This document shows, piece after piece, positions 7,139 through 17,048 of a stretch of DNA of 64,000 bases (position 1 is the first letter of the stretch; each line of letters opens with the position of its first letter). Below the pieces are notes generated by a model. The model did no database searches, was not told the DNA's origin, and was given only the letters and a program-made list of their open reading frames with translations. The position numbers were made by a program, and so were the translations under genes. The DNA is from a bacterium (GTDB lineage: Bacteria; Orphanbacterota; Orphanbacteria; Orphanbacterales; Orphanbacteraceae): contig JALGYY010000043.1 of the NCBI GenBank assembly GCA_025782575.1, positions 62,001 through 126,000 on the forward strand. Reading direction: 5' to 3'.

Positions 7139-7597
7139 ATGATCAGGATTGCTGACATTCTGGAGTCGGAGGCCATACTAGTCCGGCCTCCCGCCAAAGA
7201 CAAGTATGCCCTGATACGGGAACTTGTCGACCAATTATCCTTCCGCCGTCGGATCAAGAACCCCAAAACCGCCCTGGCTGATGTCATCTCACGGGAAAAA
7301 GAGAAGGGTACCGGGCTCGAACAGGGTGTGGCCGTTCCCCACTGCAGGACGACGGGAACGGAAGAGCTGGCGGCCGCGTTCGCTCTGGTTCCCGATGGCA
7401 TTGACTTCGGTGCCATCGACGGTCAGCCGAGCCGCTTCATCTTCCTGGTCATCTCGCCCAAAGACGCCACGACATCGCATGTTCAAGCACTCGCCTGCAT
7501 GGCCAGACTTCTCAAGAAGGACTCGGTCCAGGAGGCCCTTCTCGCTGCTACCGATGGTGGAGAGATTGAGAAAATTCTGACGGAGAATGACAGTTGA
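7139..7597 (+). CDS. PTS EIIA type-2 (PtsN-like) domain protein
   Basis: A 152-residue single-domain protein of the PTS IIA/nitrogen-regulatory family. The phosphorylatable histidine is His68 in VAVPHC, preceded by the usual GTGLEQG motif, so the active site is intact. Proteins of this kind relay phosphate from HPr-like proteins to regulatory targets. No HPr, EI or sugar permease gene is in the window, so a regulatory rather than transport role is likely. I chose the ATG at 7139 because the family begins with an IxDIL-type motif there; an upstream open extension lacks similarity. The 3' end overlaps rlmE by 11 nt, indicating translational coupling. A second EIIA-like gene is at 54721..55182. 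Confidence 0.82.
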   Translation: MIRIADILESEAILVRPPAKDKYALIRELVDQLSFRRRIKNPKTALADVISREKEKGTGLEQGVAVPHCRTTGTEELAAAFALVPDGIDFGAIDGQPSRFIFLVISPKDATTSHVQALACMARLLKKDSVQEALLAATDGGEIEKILTENDS

Positions 7598-8195
7598 GCC
7601 GATTTCGCAAAGACGATTTTTTTTTAGGCAGGCCAAGAAAGACGGCTTCGCCGCCCGTTCGGTTTACAAACTGGAAGAGATCAATCAACGAGATCGACTG
7701 ATCCGCAAGGGGTCGATCATTCTGGATCTGGGGTGCGCTCCTGGATCATGGCTACAGTACGCCGCAAAGCAAGTCGGGCCGAACGGCCGAATCGTCGGCG
7801 TCGACCCCACCCCTGTAACCGTCTCTCTCCCTTCCCACGTTCATGTTATTCAGGGAGACATGTATGCGCTCCACCCCGACGAGATTCGGAAGTGGGCGCC
7901 CGACGGATTTCATCTGGTCATGTCCGACGCCGCACCGAAGACGACGGGAATTCCTTTCGCAGACCACGCTCGCTCAGTCGAGCTGGCCAGGCGATCCCTG
8001 GAACTCGCCATCGCGCTGCTCCGGCCCGGCGGGTCGTGGCTTGCAAAGGTATTTCAAGGTGAAGATCTCCCCCCGTTACGCGATGAAGCCCGCAAGCGTT
8101 TCCGTAAATTCATGGAGAGAAAACCGAAGAGTTCGCGGGACCGAAGTGTGGAGGTCTTTCTCGTAGGGATCGGATTCGGGCGGCCTACTGAATGA
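7587..8195 (+). CDS. rlmE: 23S rRNA 2'-O-ribose methyltransferase RlmE (FtsJ)
   Basis: A 202-residue SAM-dependent enzyme that methylates the ribose of a uridine in the 23S A-loop. The catalytic K-D-K-E set is visible: Lys28 in SVYKLEEI, Asp in MSDAAPKTTG, Lys in WLAKVFQGED and Glu in SVEVFLVG. The SAM-binding motif LDLGCAPGSW is at about residues 46-55. Length matches the family. The start codon overlaps the end of the EIIA gene by 11 nt. A run of nine T at 7617-7625 encodes three Phe near the N terminus, an unusual homopolymer in this GC-rich sequence. The 3' end overlaps the convergent prepilin peptidase gene by 11 nt. Confidence 0.93.
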   Translation: MTVEPISQRRFFFRQAKKDGFAARSVYKLEEINQRDRLIRKGSIILDLGCAPGSWLQYAAKQVGPNGRIVGVDPTPVTVSLPSHVHVIQGDMYALHPDEIRKWAPDGFHLVMSDAAPKTTGIPFADHARSVELARRSLELAIALLRPGGSWLAKVFQGEDLPPLRDEARKRFRKFMERKPKSSRDRSVEVFLVGIGFGRPTE

Positions 8196-8967
8196 TCACG
8201 TATTTTAAATAAAAAGCAATCCACGTTTCTCCGTAAAGCAAAGCGAGAAAACCGATCGGCGCCAGAAACACGCCGAACGGAATCGCGAAAGTGCCCGACT
8301 TCTTCCGAAACAGAATTAGAGCGATACCTACCAGGCCGCCGGCAAGGGAGGAAAGAAAGAGTACCAGAAAAACGCTCTGCCACCCGAGGAACGCCCCCAT
8401 CATCGCAGCCAGTTTGACATCGCCCCCCCCCATGCCTTCCCTCTTCCTCATTCGAAAGTAGAGCTCGGCAATCAGGTAGAGCGACCCCCCTCCTGCTAGG
8501 ATTCCGAGAAGCGAGTCAACCCACTCCCCCATGAGAACCCCATGATAGAGAAAGCCGATCGGAATTCCCGGCAGTGAGAGAGAGTCCGGGATGAGCTGAA
8601 GATCATAGTCCGTGAGTGTGATCGCGAGCATGACACATGTATAGTACAGGACGAAAGTGATTTTCCAATCGATCGGAAAACGGAGCGACACAAGAAGAAA
8701 TAGAAGAGCTGTCAGGATTTCGACGGCGGGATAGCGGGGGGAGATTCGCTTTCTGCAATGCCGGCAGCGGCCTCCGAGAAGAACCCAGCTGAGCACGGGA
8801 ATATTGTCCCAGGGTGCGATCTGCTTCTTACATTTCGGACAGGCGGACGGCGGGGTAACGATCGACTTCCCCCGTGGGAGACGGTAGACGCAGACATTCA
8901 GAAAGCTGCCTACCATGAGTCCGATCAGGACCAGAAAGGGCCTGAACAGAGGCTCGAGACCGTTCAC
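8185..8967 (-). CDS. pilD: Type IV prepilin peptidase (A24 family)
   Basis: A 260-residue inner-membrane aspartic protease that cleaves the leader of type IV pilin-like proteins and N-methylates the new N terminus. The zinc site of the N-terminal domain is present as two CxxC pairs (Cys43/46 and Cys68/71). The aspartates are in LTDYDLQLIPD and in the GxGD-type motif GGGDVK. About seven hydrophobic segments are visible. The start is GTG, overlapping the uracil-DNA glycosylase stop codon (GTGA), so the two genes are co-translated. No pilin or secretion genes lie nearby in the window. Confidence 0.93.
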   Translation of the reverse strand: MNGLEPLFRPFLVLIGLMVGSFLNVCVYRLPRGKSIVTPPSACPKCKKQIAPWDNIPVLSWVLLGGRCRHCRKRISPRYPAVEILTALLFLLVSLRFPIDWKITFVLYYTCVMLAITLTDYDLQLIPDSLSLPGIPIGFLYHGVLMGEWVDSLLGILAGGGSLYLIAELYFRMRKREGMGGGDVKLAAMMGAFLGWQSVFLVLFLSSLAGGLVGIALILFRKKSGTFAIPFGVFLAPIGFLALLYGETWIAFYLKYVIIQ

Positions 8968-9527
8968 GCCGCCCCTTTCGATTGAGTTAGAATGCGGGCT
9001 ACTTTGACGAAATCAAGATGGAACACCGGTTCGAGTCCCCGGTTGTAGAGAATGGCCGCGGGATGATAGATGGGGAGTACTGTGCGCCCCTTCCAGATAA
9101 ACATCTCTCCATGCATCTCGCCGATGGTCGCTTTCTTTCCCGCCAGAAAGCGGAGGGCGAAATTTCCCATGGGGACGATGACCTCCGGGTCAACGCACTC
9201 GATCTGCTCCACAAGAAAAGCCCCGCACATATCGATCTCTTCTCTTTTCGGGTTCCGGTTTTTGGGAGGGCGGCATTTCAGTACATTGGCGATGAACAGC
9301 TCGGACCGTGTAAGCCCCGCTTGCCGGAGCGCTTCGTCGAGCATCTTTCCCGCCTGACCGATGAAGGGCTCGCCGCCGAGGTCTTCGCTCCGCCCGGGCG
9401 CTTCCCCGATCAGGAATACACGAGCATTCCGGTCGCCGCTCCCGAACACGACGCGATTCCGCGATTGCGAAAGCGAACAGAGCTCACAGTTCTCCGTCGA
9501 TTCTCTGAGACTGTTCAGACGATCCAT
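8964..9527 (-). CDS. Uracil-DNA glycosylase, family 4 (iron-sulfur)
   Basis: A 187-residue enzyme that removes uracil from DNA to start base-excision repair. The four cluster ligands are Cys14 and Cys17 in NCELC, Cys85 in KCRPP and Cys101 in DMCGAF, the pattern of thermophile-type family 4 enzymes. The active-site motif GEAPGRSEDLGGEPFIGQAG is at about residues 41-60 and the second motif HPAAIL is near the C terminus. The ATG at 9527 follows a GAGG; a TTG one codon upstream is an alternative. The gene may be read with the upstream sigma54-driven operon, because I see no terminator in the 114 nt before it. Confidence 0.93.
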   Translation of the reverse strand: MDRLNSLRESTENCELCSLSQSRNRVVFGSGDRNARVFLIGEAPGRSEDLGGEPFIGQAGKMLDEALRQAGLTRSELFIANVLKCRPPKNRNPKREEIDMCGAFLVEQIECVDPEVIVPMGNFALRFLAGKKATIGEMHGEMFIWKGRTVLPIYHPAAILYNRGLEPVFHLDFVKVARILTQSKGAA

Positions 9528-9641
9528 CAACTCCCTCGTCGTTCTTATCGGCCGGTGAGGACGGTGTCAGAATAGTCAGGAGGAGAAGATTGAGTCCAGA
9601 GGAAAGGGTACTGTCCGGGTGAGACGGGGACGGGAGCCGTG

Positions 9642-10607
9642 TCAGATCGGCCGACCGGACCAGGCGGCGAGGCGCTTAACGGTCACCTGGTTCTCCAGGG
9701 GGTCTCCTGTAATATAGTAGATCGCTGTTCGATTCCGCCGCCGATTCCAGCACATTTCACGCACTCCATCATCCGCCTCCATGCCGGCGGTCAGCATGGT
9801 CGCCGAAGGAGAACGAATTTCCTCCATTTGCAGGAGAAGCGAAAGACGACGAGAATCCTTCCAGCCGACGGCGTCCCGATCGTAGTAGATCGACACGTAC
9901 TGACTGTTCGGCGGCTTACCAGGCGGTCTCTCTTTGTCGATCGGGGGGACGGCGCCGCTCCAATTCTTCCATAGATCGTTCTCGATGCGAATCGCTCCTC
10001 CATCCTGGAGCAAGACGGTCGTTCGGCGGAGAGACTTTCCCGCCGGCCGCAGACGGTAGAGAACGTGGCCGGCCGGCCGGTCCGCGCATGGAACGAACAT
10101 CGAAATCAGCTCCCGACCATCCTTCCCTTTGTAGAGTTGAATCTCCTTCTTGTGAAGACTGATATCATCCCAGTCCGATCGAATGTGAATTCGAAAACGG
10201 AACAGACTGGAGGGGTCGTTGGAATCGCCCCTTCTGGTCACTGCCAGGATGAGAGGATTACCTTCCAGCCTTCCCAACCGGTATTCGACTGGATCGCACT
10301 GACGCCCCGGAATGACGACCACAGCCATACTGTTGCTCTCCGCTGCTTCACTCAGCCTCATACGAAGCCAGGAGGGGAATGGCTCTTTCTCCGTAAGAAC
10401 AAGAAAACGGACTGCGTCATGACCTGAAAGGACAAGGAAGTCGAACCAGGTCTCCGAATCCGCCTCCAGTCGGCTGAGCGCACCCTCGTAACCCTCCGGG
10501 ATCCGGAGCCCCTGATCGACTGCAGAGCGGAGCAGGGATCGACCGATCCAATCCCGCTCGGCACACGCTATCTCTCTCTTGCTTAAGGGTCGGTCCTTGG
10601 TTGTCAT
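9642..10607 (-). CDS. Protein of unknown function in the sigma54-peptide operon
   Basis: A 321-residue soluble protein that I do not recognise. It has no signal peptide, no long hydrophobic segment and no clear motif. It is rich in Arg and charged residues, with a mixed alpha/beta look and alternating strand-like patterns (FRFRIHIRSDW, TAIYYITGD). The ATG at 10607 overlaps the TGA of the upstream AAA-like gene (ATGA) and has AAGGA 4-5 nt before it, so translation is coupled. A start further upstream at 10649 would overlap that gene by 46 nt and is less likely. Its place as third gene of a predicted sigma54-controlled operon suggests that it works with the exported peptide or the degenerate activator, but no function can be assigned. 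Confidence 0.65.
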   Translation of the reverse strand: MTTKDRPLSKREIACAERDWIGRSLLRSAVDQGLRIPEGYEGALSRLEADSETWFDFLVLSGHDAVRFLVLTEKEPFPSWLRMRLSEAAESNSMAVVVIPGRQCDPVEYRLGRLEGNPLILAVTRRGDSNDPSSLFRFRIHIRSDWDDISLHKKEIQLYKGKDGRELISMFVPCADRPAGHVLYRLRPAGKSLRRTTVLLQDGGAIRIENDLWKNWSGAVPPIDKERPPGKPPNSQYVSIYYDRDAVGWKDSRRLSLLLQMEEIRSPSATMLTAGMEADDGVREMCWNRRRNRTAIYYITGDPLENQVTVKRLAAWSGRPI

Positions 10608-11221
10608 GTTGTCCTTAGTCGTACCGGGTAAAGGGGATCCACCTCCCATGCTTCCTGCCCGGGAACAAGGTATGTATCACTCGCGCCTACCGCTCCCCGG
10701 TGAGGGATGGGAATCGTCAAGGTGCTCAATCGAAGCCCGAGACCCCTATTGAAATCCCCTCGAGCGACCAGATCATCGAGGGATCTCCTCGCCGTGCTGA
10801 TCACGCGGAAGGGACTCCCATTCCGGGCTGAAGCGCCGGCGTCTTCAAGAAGATCGAGTATCCCGTTCTGAACCCAGGAGGTAAGCCGATCTACCCCCTC
10901 GATGATGATCGTCCTGCCGGTGTAAGAGGACTCCACTAAGGCGTCGATTCCGCTCTCGTTCAGCCGATCGCTGCACATGAGTCGGGCGGTCTCGCCGAGT
11001 CGGAGCTCCAGGTAACGGAGGCCGCTTGCCACATCTCCTGTCAGCAAAATGTTGGCCCGGCTCCGAAGAGCGTCCGCCAGCTTCCGGCCTGTTCCATACC
11101 AATCGTATTGCGGACAGGCCTGACTCCACCCCCGCGAGGCGTTCATTCCACAGGCATCGAACGGCGCATCGATCGCGCCCGCCCCCACCAATCGAATCCC
11201 CATGATCTCTGTCTTCATCAT
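10604..11221 (-). CDS. Degenerate sigma54-activator AAA+ domain protein (pseudo-ATPase)
   Basis: A 205-residue protein that aligns with the AAA+ domain of NtrC-type activators, including the one in the adjacent 1714-residue protein. The best match is about residues 138-175: FRVISTARRSLDDLVARGDF then LRLSTLTIPIPHR, against VRIIAATRWNLKMRIAKNQF then YRLARFTIEVPPLNR. Key motifs are lost. The Walker A place reads GDVASGLR (62-69) instead of GETGTGKE, the Walker B acids are missing (IIIEGVDR), and the region with the GAFTGA loop is deleted. The arginine finger region FREDLYYR reads FNRGLGLR. There is no HTH. I infer a non-catalytic modulator, perhaps one that interacts with the full activator. The ATG at 11221 follows AGAGG; it ends in an ATGA overlap with the next gene. 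Confidence 0.65.
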   Translation of the reverse strand: MMKTEIMGIRLVGAGAIDAPFDACGMNASRGWSQACPQYDWYGTGRKLADALRSRANILLTGDVASGLRYLELRLGETARLMCSDRLNESGIDALVESSYTGRTIIIEGVDRLTSWVQNGILDLLEDAGASARNGSPFRVISTARRSLDDLVARGDFNRGLGLRLSTLTIPIPHRGAVGASDTYLVPGQEAWEVDPLYPVRLRTT

Positions 11222-11307: not shown

Positions 11308-11547
11308 CTATGGGTGTGGGAAACCCGGATCTTCCGGCTCGGACTGGGATCCGCTCCCTCCCTGGGAACCGCCGCCCGTGCCATCTCCACTCTCATCCGC
11401 CCAGGCGGAGGCAACGGGGAAGGAGATGCCCGATTGATTGTCGTTGTCATGATTCCCGCGGAGCCCCACAGGGAAAACGGCCAGGATGAGCGTGAGAGTA
11501 AGTATGAGAACGATAGATCGAGCTCGTGCGCAGACACTTCCGGTCAT
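11308..11547 (-). CDS. Small exported Gly/Ser-rich peptide, sigma54-controlled
   Basis: A 79-residue protein. The N terminus has Arg residues (8 and 10) and a hydrophobic stretch, residues 11-29, typical of a signal peptide or membrane anchor. A second weakly hydrophobic part ends in ASAWA at 46-50, a possible cleavage site. The rest, residues 51-79, is acidic and rich in Gly, Ser and Gln, has no Cys and ends in DPGFPHP. The ATG at 11547 is supported by a strong AAGGAGGT 5 nt upstream. A sigma54 promoter lies about 45 nt before the start and three palindromic sites lie further upstream. It is the first gene of an operon with a degenerate activator and an unknown protein. Signal, adhesin or structural peptide are all possible; I cannot tell which. 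Confidence 0.7.
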   Translation of the reverse strand: MTGSVCARARSIVLILTLTLILAVFPVGLRGNHDNDNQSGISFPVASAWADESGDGTGGGSQGGSGSQSEPEDPGFPHP

Positions 11548-11589: not shown

Positions 11590-11605
11590 TGCAATGACCG
11601 TGCGA
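11590..11605 (-). promoter_or_regulatory. Sigma54 (RpoN) promoter of the peptide operon
   Basis: On the minus strand the sequence reads TCGCACG-GTCA-TTGCA (11605-11590). The sigma54 consensus is TGGCACG-N4-TTGCW, so only one base of the -24 element differs. Transcription is expected near 11579, giving a leader of about 32 nt that contains AAGGAGGT before the ATG at 11547. Confidence 0.75.
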
Positions 11606-11687: not shown

Positions 11688-11711
11688 GAATTCGTACTTT
11701 TGTACGAATTC
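11688..11711. promoter_or_regulatory. Activator site 1: perfect 10-bp-arm palindrome
   Basis: Arms GAATTCGTAC and GTACGAATTC flank TTTT. Its centre is about 120 bp upstream of the predicted sigma54 transcription start, the normal place for an enhancer-binding protein. The core TCGTAC-N4-GTACGA recurs at 11796 and 11817. Confidence 0.75.
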
Positions 11712-11795
11712 CGAATCAGAGTTGAGAGAGGGGATAGGATCCTAACTGATTATATTTAATAAAGTTAAGATCATTCGATCGGGAGATTCACTTAG

Positions 11796-11811
11796 TCGTA
11801 CATTTGTACGA
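11796..11811. promoter_or_regulatory. Activator site 2: TCGTAC-N4-GTACGA
   Basis: A perfect 6-bp-arm inverted repeat around ATTT. Its centre is 104 bp from site 1 and 21 bp from site 3, that is, close to whole numbers of helical turns, so bound dimers would lie on the same face of the DNA. Confidence 0.7.
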
Positions 11812-11816
11812 TCAAT

Positions 11817-11832
11817 TCGTACATTCGTACGA
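11817..11832. promoter_or_regulatory. Activator site 3: TCGTAC-N4-GTACGA
   Basis: A perfect 6-bp-arm inverted repeat around ATTC, 21 bp centre-to-centre from site 2, between the peptide promoter and the end of the kinase-activator gene. The likely ligand is the Fis-type HTH of that neighbouring protein. The rest of 11548-11903 is AT-rich and non-coding. Confidence 0.7.
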
Positions 11833-11903: not shown

Positions 11904-14900
11904 TCAGGAGCGATTGGGATCACGGTCGAGACCGTACTTACGCATCTTCTTTCGGATAGTCGCTTCATGAATGCCAAGCAGTCGGGCGGTCAGGGATTGA
12001 TTCCAGCTTGTCCTGCTGAGTGCGTTCTGGAGGAGCTGCCCCTCGAACTGCGCGACCGCTTCCGGGAGCGTGAGGCCTCTCCCTTTCCGAGCTCCGTCCG
12101 CATTGATAACCCATGCCTCGCGAACCGTATCGGGGAGATCGACCAGCTCGATCCGGGAGCCGCCACAAACGACAACAGCGCGCTCAATCGCATTCGCCAG
12201 CTCCCGTACATTCCCCGGCCAGTCGTAGACTCGCAGGCATCGGATCACCTCGTCTGACAAGGCGTCCACTCTTTTGTCGTTCTGACGGGAATAGAGGTCG
12301 AGAAAGTGCCTGGCCAGCAGGTCCACATCTTCAATCCGGCGATTGAGAGGAGGTACTTCAATAGTAAAACGGGCGAGCCGGTAATAGAGATCCTCTCTGA
12401 ACTGATTCTTCGCGATTCTCATCTTCAGGTTCCATCGGGTCGCCGCGATGATCCTGACGTCCACGCGTATTGTCTGTGTGCTCCCCAGTCTCTGGAACTC
12501 CCCCTCCTGCAGGACACGCAGAAGCTTCGGCTGCGCGGCAAGAGGAAGATCTCCGATCTCATCCAGGAAGAGTGTGCCGCCATCCAGCTTTTCGAAGTAG
12601 CCGATCTTTCTTTCTTTTGCGTCCGTGAACGCACCGGGCTCATGTCCGAACAGATGAGACTCAATCAACTCCGTCGGCAGAGCCGCGATATTCAGTTTAT
12701 CGAACGGAGTCTCGCTCCGTGCGCTTTTCTCATGAATCAGACGAGCCACGAGTTCCTTCCCCGTTCCCGTCTCCCCTTCGATCAGGACCGAAATATCGCT
12801 CGTTGCCGCCCGAATCGATTTTTCCACCACGCTATTGATCGCCGCGCTCCGCCCGACGATCTCTCCGGGCTTCGTTCCGGAAGTGACCTCCCGCCGAAGA
12901 TCGGCGTTCTCCTGCTCCAGGTCTTCCATCAAGCGAGCGTTCTTGATAGCAAGAGTGGTCTGATCGGCCAGTGCGCGAAGAAAGAGTTTATCCGGTTCGT
13001 GAAATACACCCGCACGGTGACAATTGTCCAGATAGATCACACCGATCGGTTCACCCCTGAATTGAAGCGGCGCGGTGATCACAGACAAAATATTATAGGC
13101 ATCAATACTTTTTGTCTTCTTCAAACGACGATCGGTCCCCGTGTCGTCGAAGACGATCGGGACAGATGATCGCTGGGACTCGAGAAGAAGGGTCTTGCTG
13201 AATCGAGTGACGTCATCGAGATCTCCCCCCTCCAGAGACCGGGCTACCTTCATTTCGAGGCCACCGTCGGCAGTCTGCAGCAGGATAAGCCCGCGGTCCG
13301 CCCCCAGATACTCCACGGCCTTGTCCAGAACGAATTCCAGAATCTTCTGAGAATCACGAAGCGTATTGATCCCCTCCGCAATCCGGCAGATCAAGCGGAA
13401 TGCCTCCCCCATCCCATCGGACTGGGGCGAAACGGCCGCGATCAGTTCAGGCAGGAAAGCAGGAGGAGAGGCGTATCTCACAAGCCCGTAGAGCCGCTTC
13501 GCTTCTTCGATGTGACGCTTGGCCTTCCGCCGTTCTCCCCGGCGGAGGGAGACCGCCCCATAGTAGGAATGGGCGAGAGCGCGATCAATCCGCGCACCGA
13601 GCTTGGTAAAGATCCGGACAGCATTCTGAAAATGCCGGGCCTCCGCCTCGTTCCGCCGTTTGCCGTCACAGGCGCGGCCGTGAAGCATCGCCAGCCTGCC
13701 GCTCAGGAGGGGATTACGCTGTCGCTTGGCGAGTCGATCAAGCTCATCGAGTTTTTCCCGAGCCTCCCCGCTCCTGTTCCGGTTGAGAGCGCTTTCCGCT
13801 TGAAGGAGAAGAATTTCAGCCATGTTGATCTTCTCCTCCCCCTCCCTCGCAATCTCCATGGCACGGCCAAGAGTCTCCTCCACTTCATGCCACTGGCGGT
13901 TCAACTGGTGATAGCGTCCGAGTTGAATGAGCGCGTAGCCCTTCAGCCGGTCACCGGGAGCTGAATCCGCAATCGCCTTCCCTTCGGAGAGTACGTCGTG
14001 AGCCGACTGCATCTCGCCGCGCGCCATATGACAACGGGCGAGTACCATCAGCCCGCCGAACCGGATCTGAGGATGGGCACCGGCGCGATTCGCCTCGATC
14101 ACCGCGCGATCCGCCAGACGAAGCGCCTCGTCGAGTCGCCCGCGATCGATCGCCATCTGGCTCCGGCCGATATAGACTCGAAGACTTCTGCTCTCTTCCC
14201 CATACTCCCGGTAGGTCCTCTCGGCCTGCGTGAAAGCACGTTCGGCATCCCCCCATTCGCCAAGCCGATGAAGAAGACCCGCAAGATCCTCCTGGATTCT
14301 CCCCTCTTCAAGTATATCGCTCGATTGTGCAGCCAGGCCGGACGCCTTCCGAAGAAGAGCCGCCGCCTTGTCGAGATTATCGCGGGACCGGGCGATCAGG
14401 GCGAGATTCGAAAGCGGAGAAGGCGTTTCAGATGGGTGGCTTTTTTCCAGCGCTCGGAGAGACCGACGAAAACAACTCTCCGCGTTCTTCAGCTCTCCCC
14501 GCAGGAACAGGGCACCTCCCATGCGATTGTAGATCTGCCCTCGGAGGAGGGGCTCTTTCTTTCCTTTCAGAAGAGCGAGAGCCCGTTCGAGATCCCTCCA
14601 CGCCTCTTCATAGTTTCCGCTGCGCATGACGACCCAGCTCCGATCACGGAGAACAGTGGCCCACTCACTTGCAGGAACCGCCGTTTCATGCCTTCTCAAT
14701 CGACTGAAAATCCGCTCCGCATCCTGGACTCGCCCCATCTGAAAGAGAATCCAACCTCGCAGGCGTTCTCCACGCACGAGAAAGGTGATCTCTCTTTGAC
14801 GACCGGCCAGCTTGAGGGCGAGCAAACGGAGAGCGGCAAGGGCCGCCCGGGACTCACCGATCCGATTGCGGACGAGTGCCAGGCGATAAAGAACCAGGCT

Positions 14901-17048
14901 GTGCGCGTGAGTCGGGATTCGACCCTGCCCGAGCCGAATCACCCTTCGATAAACATCGGCCGCGTCGGAAAATGCGTAAAGCTCTTCGAACTCCTGAGCA
15001 CCCTCAATGTACTTCTGGCATGCGGAGGCAATGGAGCCGACTTTTTCCAGGTGGTGCGCGGTGACCATAAGGGCACCGGGAACACCTTTCCTCTCTCCTT
15101 CCCGAGATAGCCGGGAAGCCAGCTTATGGATTCGTGTGAGTTCATCCTGCGAGACGGCACCCGTCAGGCCGGCGCGAATCTCTTCTGACCTCGGGAGGAA
15201 GACGTCCCCCTCGTTCCCGCTTTCGATTGATACCAGCAGCCGGTCTACGAGGGGTCGGATCGCCCTTGTCCAATCCATATCGGAGATCTTGAGAAGCCGG
15301 CGTAGATGGGGTCCTGTAACCGGCGCGGGGGCCGATGCGATCGCCGCTGCGAGCAGCCTCTCCGTAGGATCGAGTTCGCCCAGAGGAATCGAACGATTCT
15401 CGTCTGTAATCGGCGGAGTATCCTCCACCTTTTTAGAGAGCGAAAATGTGTCATAGCGACGACGAATTGCCCCGCGCTTCACCCACTCATGAACGAGAAG
15501 AGACAGTCGGGAAGGGAGGCGGCCGGAGATCCGGGACGCCTGCCGAATCAATTCCGGGCTGAACTCACCCGGCCCGAGCATCCCTCGGAGATACTGATAA
15601 ACCTCTTCTTCGCTGAATCGGGAGAGAGGAGCGATCTGCACGAGCCCGCGCAAGTGGAACGGCTCGAGTACGCTTGGGATCGCCCCGTTCTCCGGACGGA
15701 GGGTCGAAAGAACCAACCGGAGCGGTCCCGGCCTTTCCCTGTCCAATAGAAAGCGAAGAAATCGGCGAGAGGAACGATCGAGATGCTCATAGTCATCGAC
15801 AATGAGAAGGGCGGGGCGATCGGATCTGTCGCCGGCATCGGCAAGGATCTTGAGAAGCGAGTCTTCAATGTTGCGGAACAGGGCGACTTCCTCGCCTCGT
15901 GTACCCCGCTTTTCTTCACTGACCTCCCCCCCGTGGGGGAGAAAACAACGCACATCCCAACTCGACACCCCGTCGGTCAGCATGTTTACCAGGAGACTGA
16001 GGCCACCATAGGGCCGACTTTCCCGTGATGCGGGAACGGCAAGGGCATAAACCGTCGAGCCCGCGAGCCGCTCGGTCGTCGCGAGCAACTGGAGCAGGCG
16101 ACTCCGTCCGGAACCACGCTCCCCCGTCACTGCGAAGACGGGCGAAGCTGCTTCCTGGCGCCAGGCATCGAACTGTTCAATTACAGATTCCCGCCCGACG
16201 AAATGGGGTGCCGGCGGGACCGCGACTCTCCGGCGCCGCCACTCCTTCCCGGTCAGATCGCTGAGCACGTCGATCGCGCTTTGCGGACGGTCAGCCGGGC
16301 TCTTCTGCAGCATTTTCTCGATCGTCAACCACCAGAGTTTCGGGACGTCCTTCGGGACATCTTCCCAATCGGGGATTTCGTCAAGGTGGCGGCGGGCGAT
16401 CTCCGTGGCCTCCCCGGTAAAGGGTACAGAGCCCCGCAGAAACTCGTAAAATGTGATCCCGAGTGAGTAGAGGTCTGTACGATGATCGGCGCTCTGTCCG
16501 CGAATCGTCTCCGGCGCCATGTACTCGAGTGTCCCGGTGATCGTGCCGAACCGATCGGCCTTCCCGAAAAGGGGTGGCAGGAAATCAGTCAACTGAAGCT
16601 CGAGGATTTCCTCCCCCTCTGCCTGAAAGAGAATATTCTCCGGCTTGATATCGCCGTGCAGGAACCCACGCTCATGAAGAAACGCCACCGCCTCACAGAG
16701 CTTCTCGGCTACCGGTAGAAAACGGCGGACCGGATCAGCGGATACCCATTCTTCTATTCGTTGACTATCCACGTATGGAGATGATGCATAGAGCACACCC
16801 TCAGGTGTTTGCCCGCACTCCAGAATGGGTGATATGCCCGGATGCTGTAACTGACTCCGAAGAACGGACTCCTCTCGGAATCGGTTTTTCATCCGCTCCG
16901 GCGCATGGCGGGAAATCAGTTTGAGTACGACCTGCCGCTCAGGATCGTCCCTTCGGCTGGCCACGACCACGACACGGTGATCCCCCTCAGCGAGCAGATC
17001 GCCCATCTTGTATGATCGGGGGGGGGTGGGTCGCGATCGAACTCCCAT
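11904..17048 (-). CDS. Ser/Thr kinase - AAA ATPase - TPR - GAF - sigma54 activator - Fis HTH fusion
   Basis: A 1714-residue signal-integrating regulator. Residues about 10-265 are a protein kinase: Lys43 in VVLKL, HGDIKPEN at 131-138, Asp155 in DFL, APE at 178-180, Asp192. The catalytic residues remain, but HRD is HGD, DFG is DFL and the Gly-rich loop is degenerate. Residues about 283-560 are an AAA_16-like ATPase (GERGSGRS near 309, LLIVDD). TPRs follow to about 1180, then a GAF domain (about 1225-1390). The sigma54 AAA+ domain starts near 1396, with Walker A GETGTGKE at 1425-1432, GAFTDA in place of GAFTGA at 1472-1477, and LFLDEIGD. A Fis-type HTH ends the protein (about 1660-1714). The ATG at 17048 follows GAGAGG. 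It probably activates the adjacent peptide operon through sigma54. Confidence 0.88.
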   Translation of the reverse strand: MGVRSRPTPPRSYKMGDLLAEGDHRVVVVASRRDDPERQVVLKLISRHAPERMKNRFREESVLRSQLQHPGISPILECGQTPEGVLYASSPYVDSQRIEEWVSADPVRRFLPVAEKLCEAVAFLHERGFLHGDIKPENILFQAEGEEILELQLTDFLPPLFGKADRFGTITGTLEYMAPETIRGQSADHRTDLYSLGITFYEFLRGSVPFTGEATEIARRHLDEIPDWEDVPKDVPKLWWLTIEKMLQKSPADRPQSAIDVLSDLTGKEWRRRRVAVPPAPHFVGRESVIEQFDAWRQEAASPVFAVTGERGSGRSRLLQLLATTERLAGSTVYALAVPASRESRPYGGLSLLVNMLTDGVSSWDVRCFLPHGGEVSEEKRGTRGEEVALFRNIEDSLLKILADAGDRSDRPALLIVDDYEHLDRSSRRFLRFLLDRERPGPLRLVLSTLRPENGAIPSVLEPFHLRGLVQIAPLSRFSEEEVYQYLRGMLGPGEFSPELIRQASRISGRLPSRLSLLVHEWVKRGAIRRRYDTFSLSKKVEDTPPITDENRSIPLGELDPTERLLAAAIASAPAPVTGPHLRRLLKISDMDWTRAIRPLVDRLLVSIESGNEGDVFLPRSEEIRAGLTGAVSQDELTRIHKLASRLSREGERKGVPGALMVTAHHLEKVGSIASACQKYIEGAQEFEELYAFSDAADVYRRVIRLGQGRIPTHAHSLVLYRLALVRNRIGESRAALAALRLLALKLAGRQREITFLVRGERLRGWILFQMGRVQDAERIFSRLRRHETAVPASEWATVLRDRSWVVMRSGNYEEAWRDLERALALLKGKKEPLLRGQIYNRMGGALFLRGELKNAESCFRRSLRALEKSHPSETPSPLSNLALIARSRDNLDKAAALLRKASGLAAQSSDILEEGRIQEDLAGLLHRLGEWGDAERAFTQAERTYREYGEESRSLRVYIGRSQMAIDRGRLDEALRLADRAVIEANRAGAHPQIRFGGLMVLARCHMARGEMQSAHDVLSEGKAIADSAPGDRLKGYALIQLGRYHQLNRQWHEVEETLGRAMEIAREGEEKINMAEILLLQAESALNRNRSGEAREKLDELDRLAKRQRNPLLSGRLAMLHGRACDGKRRNEAEARHFQNAVRIFTKLGARIDRALAHSYYGAVSLRRGERRKAKRHIEEAKRLYGLVRYASPPAFLPELIAAVSPQSDGMGEAFRLICRIAEGINTLRDSQKILEFVLDKAVEYLGADRGLILLQTADGGLEMKVARSLEGGDLDDVTRFSKTLLLESQRSSVPIVFDDTGTDRRLKKTKSIDAYNILSVITAPLQFRGEPIGVIYLDNCHRAGVFHEPDKLFLRALADQTTLAIKNARLMEDLEQENADLRREVTSGTKPGEIVGRSAAINSVVEKSIRAATSDISVLIEGETGTGKELVARLIHEKSARSETPFDKLNIAALPTELIESHLFGHEPGAFTDAKERKIGYFEKLDGGTLFLDEIGDLPLAAQPKLLRVLQEGEFQRLGSTQTIRVDVRIIAATRWNLKMRIAKNQFREDLYYRLARFTIEVPPLNRRIEDVDLLARHFLDLYSRQNDKRVDALSDEVIRCLRVYDWPGNVRELANAIERAVVVCGGSRIELVDLPDTVREAWVINADGARKGRGLTLPEAVAQFEGQLLQNALSRTSWNQSLTARLLGIHEATIRKKMRKYGLDRDPNRS

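Follow-up and report, generated by a model that had tools for sequence, protein, structure and literature searches.

What is the role of three copies of one palindrome, TCGTAC-N4-GTACGA, that occupy the 356-nt gap between a very large regulator gene (end at 11904) and a 79-aa ORF (start at 11547) in this bacterial genome? Positions refer to the window, i.e., the whole 64-kb stretch of DNA that was analysed. On sequence evidence, we propose with high confidence that the palindromes constitute a dedicated UAS which is bound by the adjacent regulator and drives a single peptide operon. The features on which this proposal is built are the following.

11688..11711 (core 11692-11707), no strand: palindrome site 1, proximal; centre 11699.5, -120 bp from the predicted +1
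11796..11811, no strand: palindrome site 2, distal; centre 11803.5, -224 bp from the predicted +1
11817..11832, no strand: palindrome site 3, distal; centre 11824.5, -245 bp from the predicted +1
11605-11591, minus strand: sigma54-type -24/-12 box TCGCACG-GTCA-TTGC; agrees with the consensus at 10 of 11 positions (shuffle P 0.001)
11308..11547, minus strand: gene for a 79-aa peptide with a hydrophobic, export-signal-like N-terminus; RBS AGGAGG
10604..11221, minus strand: 205-aa degenerate sigma54-activator AAA protein without Walker A, identified from Pfam (PF14532), orthologues and a fold match
9642..10649, minus strand: 335-aa protein, probable operon member; overlaps the preceding ORF; a relative with 26% identity occupies the corresponding place in genome G002
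11904..17048, minus strand: 1714-aa regulator gene; kinase-STAND-TPR-GAF-AAA-Fis architecture (Pfam domains)
11934..12056, minus strand: Fis-type HTH (PF02954) of the regulator, residues 1665-1705, with HEATIRKK as recognition helix; the palindromes are its proposed targets

Palindromes, promoter and genes of the locus

A re-scan placed the three palindromes at exactly the centres given by the first-pass annotation, and the perfect 10-bp arms that it had described for the first were seen at 11688-11711 (GAATTCGTAC-TTTT-GTACGAATTC). All three sites are exact 16-bp copies of the motif, the arms of sites 2 and 3 being just 6 bp long. No additional match with 0-2 mismatches was found in the 64-kb window. 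In the genome as a whole (4.88 Mb, 49 contigs), the exact motif occurs three times, always as sites 1-3, while the reversed-pattern control gave no exact match. With up to two mismatches, the motif had 190 matches and the control 180, which is background, and all ten of the one-mismatch sites fall within open frames 205 codons or more in length. Three exact copies in 141 bp, taken together with their uniqueness in the genome and the control counts, exclude chance. The symmetric core derived from 13 sites is TCGTAC with a preference for T/AT at the outer positions; the matrix totals 28 bits, a value that includes the very sites by which the motif was defined. The whole-genome scan, proposed earlier as a means of delineating a regulon of several -24/-12 promoters, showed that the motif is not scattered at random and led to a single locus instead, as neither the exact nor the mismatch scans revealed further targets above background. 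This points to a dedicated local switch rather than a multi-promoter regulon.

The predicted +1 of the sigma54-type promoter is at approximately 11579, 32 nt ahead of the start codon of the 79-aa ORF. The pattern TSGCACG-N4-TTGCW has five matches genome-wide, one of which is the box itself (11590-11605, minus strand); its -24 element reads CGCAC, not GGCAC. The palindrome centres are 120, 224 and 245 bp from the predicted +1, in agreement with the range of about 120-245 bp estimated before. RpoN (PF04552) is encoded in all seven genomes compared, i.e., this one and six relatives (G001 to G006).

The product of the regulator gene includes a Ser/Thr kinase-like domain (residues 21-256), AAA_16 (283-446), a series of TPRs (TPR_12 and others), a GAF domain (1234-1368), a sigma54 AAA domain (PF00158; 1397-1564) and the Fis HTH (PF02954; 1665-1705). 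The loop expected to contact sigma54 reads GAFTDA here and in G004, and GAFSGA in G003; both appear in the list of variants for which function is expected to persist (PMC4641369). Across the regulator orthologues, the recognition helix reads HE(A/S)T(I/V)RKK, and the regulator is the only recognised DNA-binding protein common to all of the conserved loci. Based on this helix and on the co-occurrence of the sites, it is likely that the Fis-type HTH binds the palindromes. In the kinase domain (residues 21-256) of all orthologues compared, HGD replaces HRD and, for the most part, DFL replaces DFG, so the kinase may be atypical or inactive.

The peptide ends in D-P-G-F-P-H-P-stop. Its family has a diverged middle and a shared C-terminus, D-P-x-x-P-H-P-stop, and the hydrophobic N-terminus was judged by eye in five members (this one and four from relatives). 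Each of five genomes has a single instance of the corresponding coding pattern, in every case at this locus, and there is no other coding match within the family. Outside the family (283 genomes), no short exported ORF of this kind was present among those DPxxPHP matches for which the locus was checked. For the 205-aa AAA protein, the best PDB matches of the predicted model are FlrC, NtrC1 and PspF (E about 2e-6, TM about 0.5, mean pLDDT 66), and Walker A is absent from all five orthologues. The peptide and the 335-aa protein match no family of NCBIfam or PADLOC, and the 335-aa protein none of Pfam; the fold prediction for the latter is too poor for use (pLDDT 52). In relatives, the third gene is a histidine kinase-like ORF (G003) or a receiver-like ORF (G004 and G006). 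Beyond the cassette are genes for a prepilin peptidase and a uracil-DNA glycosylase (8185-8967 and 8964-9530, minus strand); ORFs resembling these are also found beyond the cassette of G002 (L048 11569-13013).

Conservation and loss in related genomes

The sample of the phylum comprises seven genomes of a single family. Orthologues of the regulator that are full-length or nearly so, with 34-41% identity, are encoded in G002 to G005, while that of G006 is truncated by the contig. The order regulator, paired palindromes, short exported peptide (72-78 aa) and degenerate AAA protein is shared by G002, G003, G004 and G006, which represent three further genera, G004 and G006 being congeneric and hence not independent. 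The gap between the regulator and peptide genes contains two exact copies of the motif in both G004 and G006, and two near copies (1-2 mismatches) in both G003 and G002; one site of G002, TCGTAT-CTGC-ATACGA, is altered on both arms. The contig of G005 ends just past the regulator gene, and in G001 the full-length regulator, the sites and a peptide of this kind are all missing. Between the regulator stop and the palindromes of G004 (L047 3910-4220), about 90 bp are directly duplicated almost perfectly, and there are GGTATCCGATACC-type repeats; both features are absent from its congener G006. A search of a contig database for regulator orthologues returned generic Ser/Thr kinases only, and the clade itself is apparently absent from those records. 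The layout of paired palindromes and such a peptide gene is absent at the examined paralogous TPR-GAF-sigma54 regulators of the family, and likewise at three distant regulators of other groups, two of which have the kinase-to-HTH architecture.

The distance from the centre of the proximal site to the predicted +1 is nearly fixed, at 120 bp here, 121 bp in G003 and 124 bp in both G004 and G006, while that of the distal site varies from 187 to 245 bp among the same genomes. The respective -24/-12 boxes are TCGCACGGTCATTGC, CCGCACGATCCTTGC, GCGCACGATTCCTGC and TCGCACGGTTCCTGC; the G004 box taken by itself is no better than shuffles (P 0.23). The placement of the sites on one face of the helix, which the first-pass annotation had emphasized, is true of the window, where the centre spacings of 104 and 21 bp amount to 9.90 and 2.00 turns with a helical repeat of 10.5 bp, and also of G004 and G006 (64 and 63 bp, about 6 turns). 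It does not extend to G003 (123 bp, 11.7 turns), G002 (120 bp, 11.4 turns) or a second locus of G006 (133 bp, 12.7 turns), and is thus not a conserved rule. This second locus is an exact palindrome pair on another contig (L060 1501-1516 and 1634-1649; G006:C94:7353-7368 and 7486-7501) with a sigma54-like box, GGGCATGAATCCTGC, whose +1 would lie 123 bp from the centre of the proximal site. About 580 bp onward, the first clear gene encodes a Cys-rich exported protein, and the contig ends nearby. Because about 1% of 10-bp windows would contain a box of this quality by chance alone, a second target of the switch in G006 is plausible but not established.

In two of the genomes, the orthologue of the regulator has lost the loop that would contact sigma54.

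L048 4243-9396 and 9399-9693: G002 locus with the loop-less regulator orthologue, where the -24/-12 box is missing too
L049 9599-14611: loop-less regulator orthologue of G005

The GAFTGA segment is replaced by RTGGPDG and RAGGRDG, respectively, with Walker A and Walker B retained. In G002, no -24/-12 box was detected in the interval from the sites to the peptide gene (best 6 of 11 positions, shuffle P 0.997), and a simple scan of the same interval gave no sigma70 promoter. G002 nevertheless keeps the palindromes and the peptide gene despite the loss of both the loop and the box. The two losses match if the regulator acts on the promoter, and therefore provide indirect evidence for the pairing of regulator and promoter.

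Proposed enhancer function and alternative explanations

The results of these comparisons favour the interpretation of the palindromes as a sigma54 enhancer, first made from the window alone and now strongly supported by the co-occurring orthologue with its recognition helix, the box at a fixed distance, the same operon and RpoN. We rely on the three exact copies found only here, the conserved layout, the near-fixed proximal distance, RpoN and the regulator domains, as well as on the joint absence of regulator, sites and peptide in G001, the joint loss of loop and box in G002, and the second pair of G006 with its sigma54-like box at the like distance of 123 bp. Arguing against it are the CGCAC of the -24 element, the P value of 0.23 for the G004 box, the mismatched sites of G003 and G002, the unconserved phasing, and the kinship of G004 and G006. 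What the sequence itself shows is that the sites exist and are unique, that the box and the protein domains are present, and that order and distance are conserved; binding, activation, looping and the input signal are what we infer.

According to the proposed mechanism, the palindromes would act as the enhancer of the sigma54-dependent promoter at 11605-11591 (minus strand), which would drive an operon whose genes encode the 79-aa exported peptide, the degenerate AAA protein and, in all probability, the 335-aa protein. The 1714-aa NtrC-type activator, encoded immediately upstream, would bind via its C-terminal Fis-type HTH, each palindrome taking one HTH dimer. The half of the protein that includes the kinase, STAND, TPR and GAF domains would switch the bound activator on, after which it may form a ring and, by looping of the DNA, contact the sigma54 polymerase through the GAFTDA loop. 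In its own genome, the switch would serve the peptide operon only.

Perfect 16-bp palindromes would also suit dimeric repressors, and binding by the Fis domain is a prediction. The sites could be operators through which some other DNA-binding protein, either a repressor or a regulator of another type, controls the peptide operon, with the sigma54 activator acting elsewhere. We regard this as improbable, since no second DNA-binding protein is recognised at all of the conserved loci and the full-length regulator and the sites are missing together in G001. Moreover, sites located around -120 and further upstream, at a set distance from a sigma54 box, point to an enhancer and not to a repressor operator. 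Still less probable is that site 1 and its relatives serve to terminate transcription of the regulator gene as an RNA hairpin with 11 pairs and a loop of 4. On the minus strand, site 1 is indeed flagged by a terminator scan, and a stable fold is obtained for its RNA (-13.9 kcal/mol, z -5.0), but in three of the four other genomes the counterparts give poor folds (z -1.2 to -1.6), and the G003 site has a broken pair without compensation. Two more copies with arms of just 6 bp precede site 1, the T-tail is weak, and what is conserved is the letters of the motif and not the length of the stem. The hairpin was rejected as neither stem stability nor the T-tail is conserved. Finally, palindrome clusters are common in mobile or replication elements (a repeat family, a partition or origin site), yet a part of such an element with no role in transcription is scarcely credible here, as the genome has no further copies and no dispersed family, and the same place is kept in genera whose regulators share only 35-41% identity.

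Comparison with known systems

A regulator gene with TPRs next to a small peptide gene recalls the RRNPP systems (PlcR-PapR and others; PMC10075063), and the peptide is similar in its export-signal-like N-terminus and short conserved C-terminus. By definition, RRNPP receptors have TPRs and 250-500 aa, and propeptides have 10-100 aa and are secreted through Sec, with the genes -50 to 191 bp apart (PMC10075063). The 79-aa peptide is within that range and the regulator contains TPRs; in contrast, the regulator has 1714 aa, is a sigma54 activator with the TPRs mid-protein, and the genes, although neighbours, are 356 nt apart with the enhancer in the gap. Membership is not claimed, as receptor size and gene distance are outside the definition. 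A self-contained peptide-signalling cassette, in which the TPR/STAND half would sense the peptide or its D-P-x-x-P-H-P end, the palindromes would amplify expression of the peptide, and the degenerate AAA protein would join or cap the activator ring and so damp it, is a rather unlikely extension of the enhancer reading. That the degenerate AAA protein is an anti-activator, a damper of the ring, is a guess.

Some regulators of the NtrC family that lack GAFTGA, e.g., TyrR, do not use sigma54. The orthologues of G002 and G005 resemble them in keeping the ATPase motifs without the loop, although that of G002 still sits at the same enhancer and peptide locus. The G002 lineage is a natural experiment in how an enhancer-binding protein can leave sigma54.

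There is a close likeness to the NtrC-type enhancer-binding proteins and their UAS (NtrC, NorR, PspF, and the regulome of Desulfovibrio vulgaris; PMC4641369), which have in common with this locus a sigma54 AAA domain with a GAFTGA-type loop, a Fis-type HTH, multiple palindromes at least 100 bp upstream of a -24/-12 promoter, and a target adjoining the regulator gene. Here, a sigma54 AAA domain with a loop of a type expected to be functional, an HTH, a predicted -24/-12 promoter downstream and RpoN are all present. The class of mechanism, a sigma54 enhancer, is already known and of an ordinary type. In contrast to those systems, an array of kinase-like, AAA_16, TPR and GAF domains spanning some 1400 residues makes up the sensory half, and the -24 element is CGCAC. 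What is targeted is an exported peptide that has no name, accompanied by a degenerate AAA protein, and a sister lineage retains the sites without the loop or the sigma54 box. The peptide, its AAA partner and the regulator design look undescribed, and we found no description in the literature of the DNA sites and targets of a kinase-STAND-TPR-GAF sigma54 activator. For such an activator, the locus supplies a clean binding motif, a promoter geometry and a single target, and it points to an unnamed family of exported peptides that is associated one-to-one with the switch.
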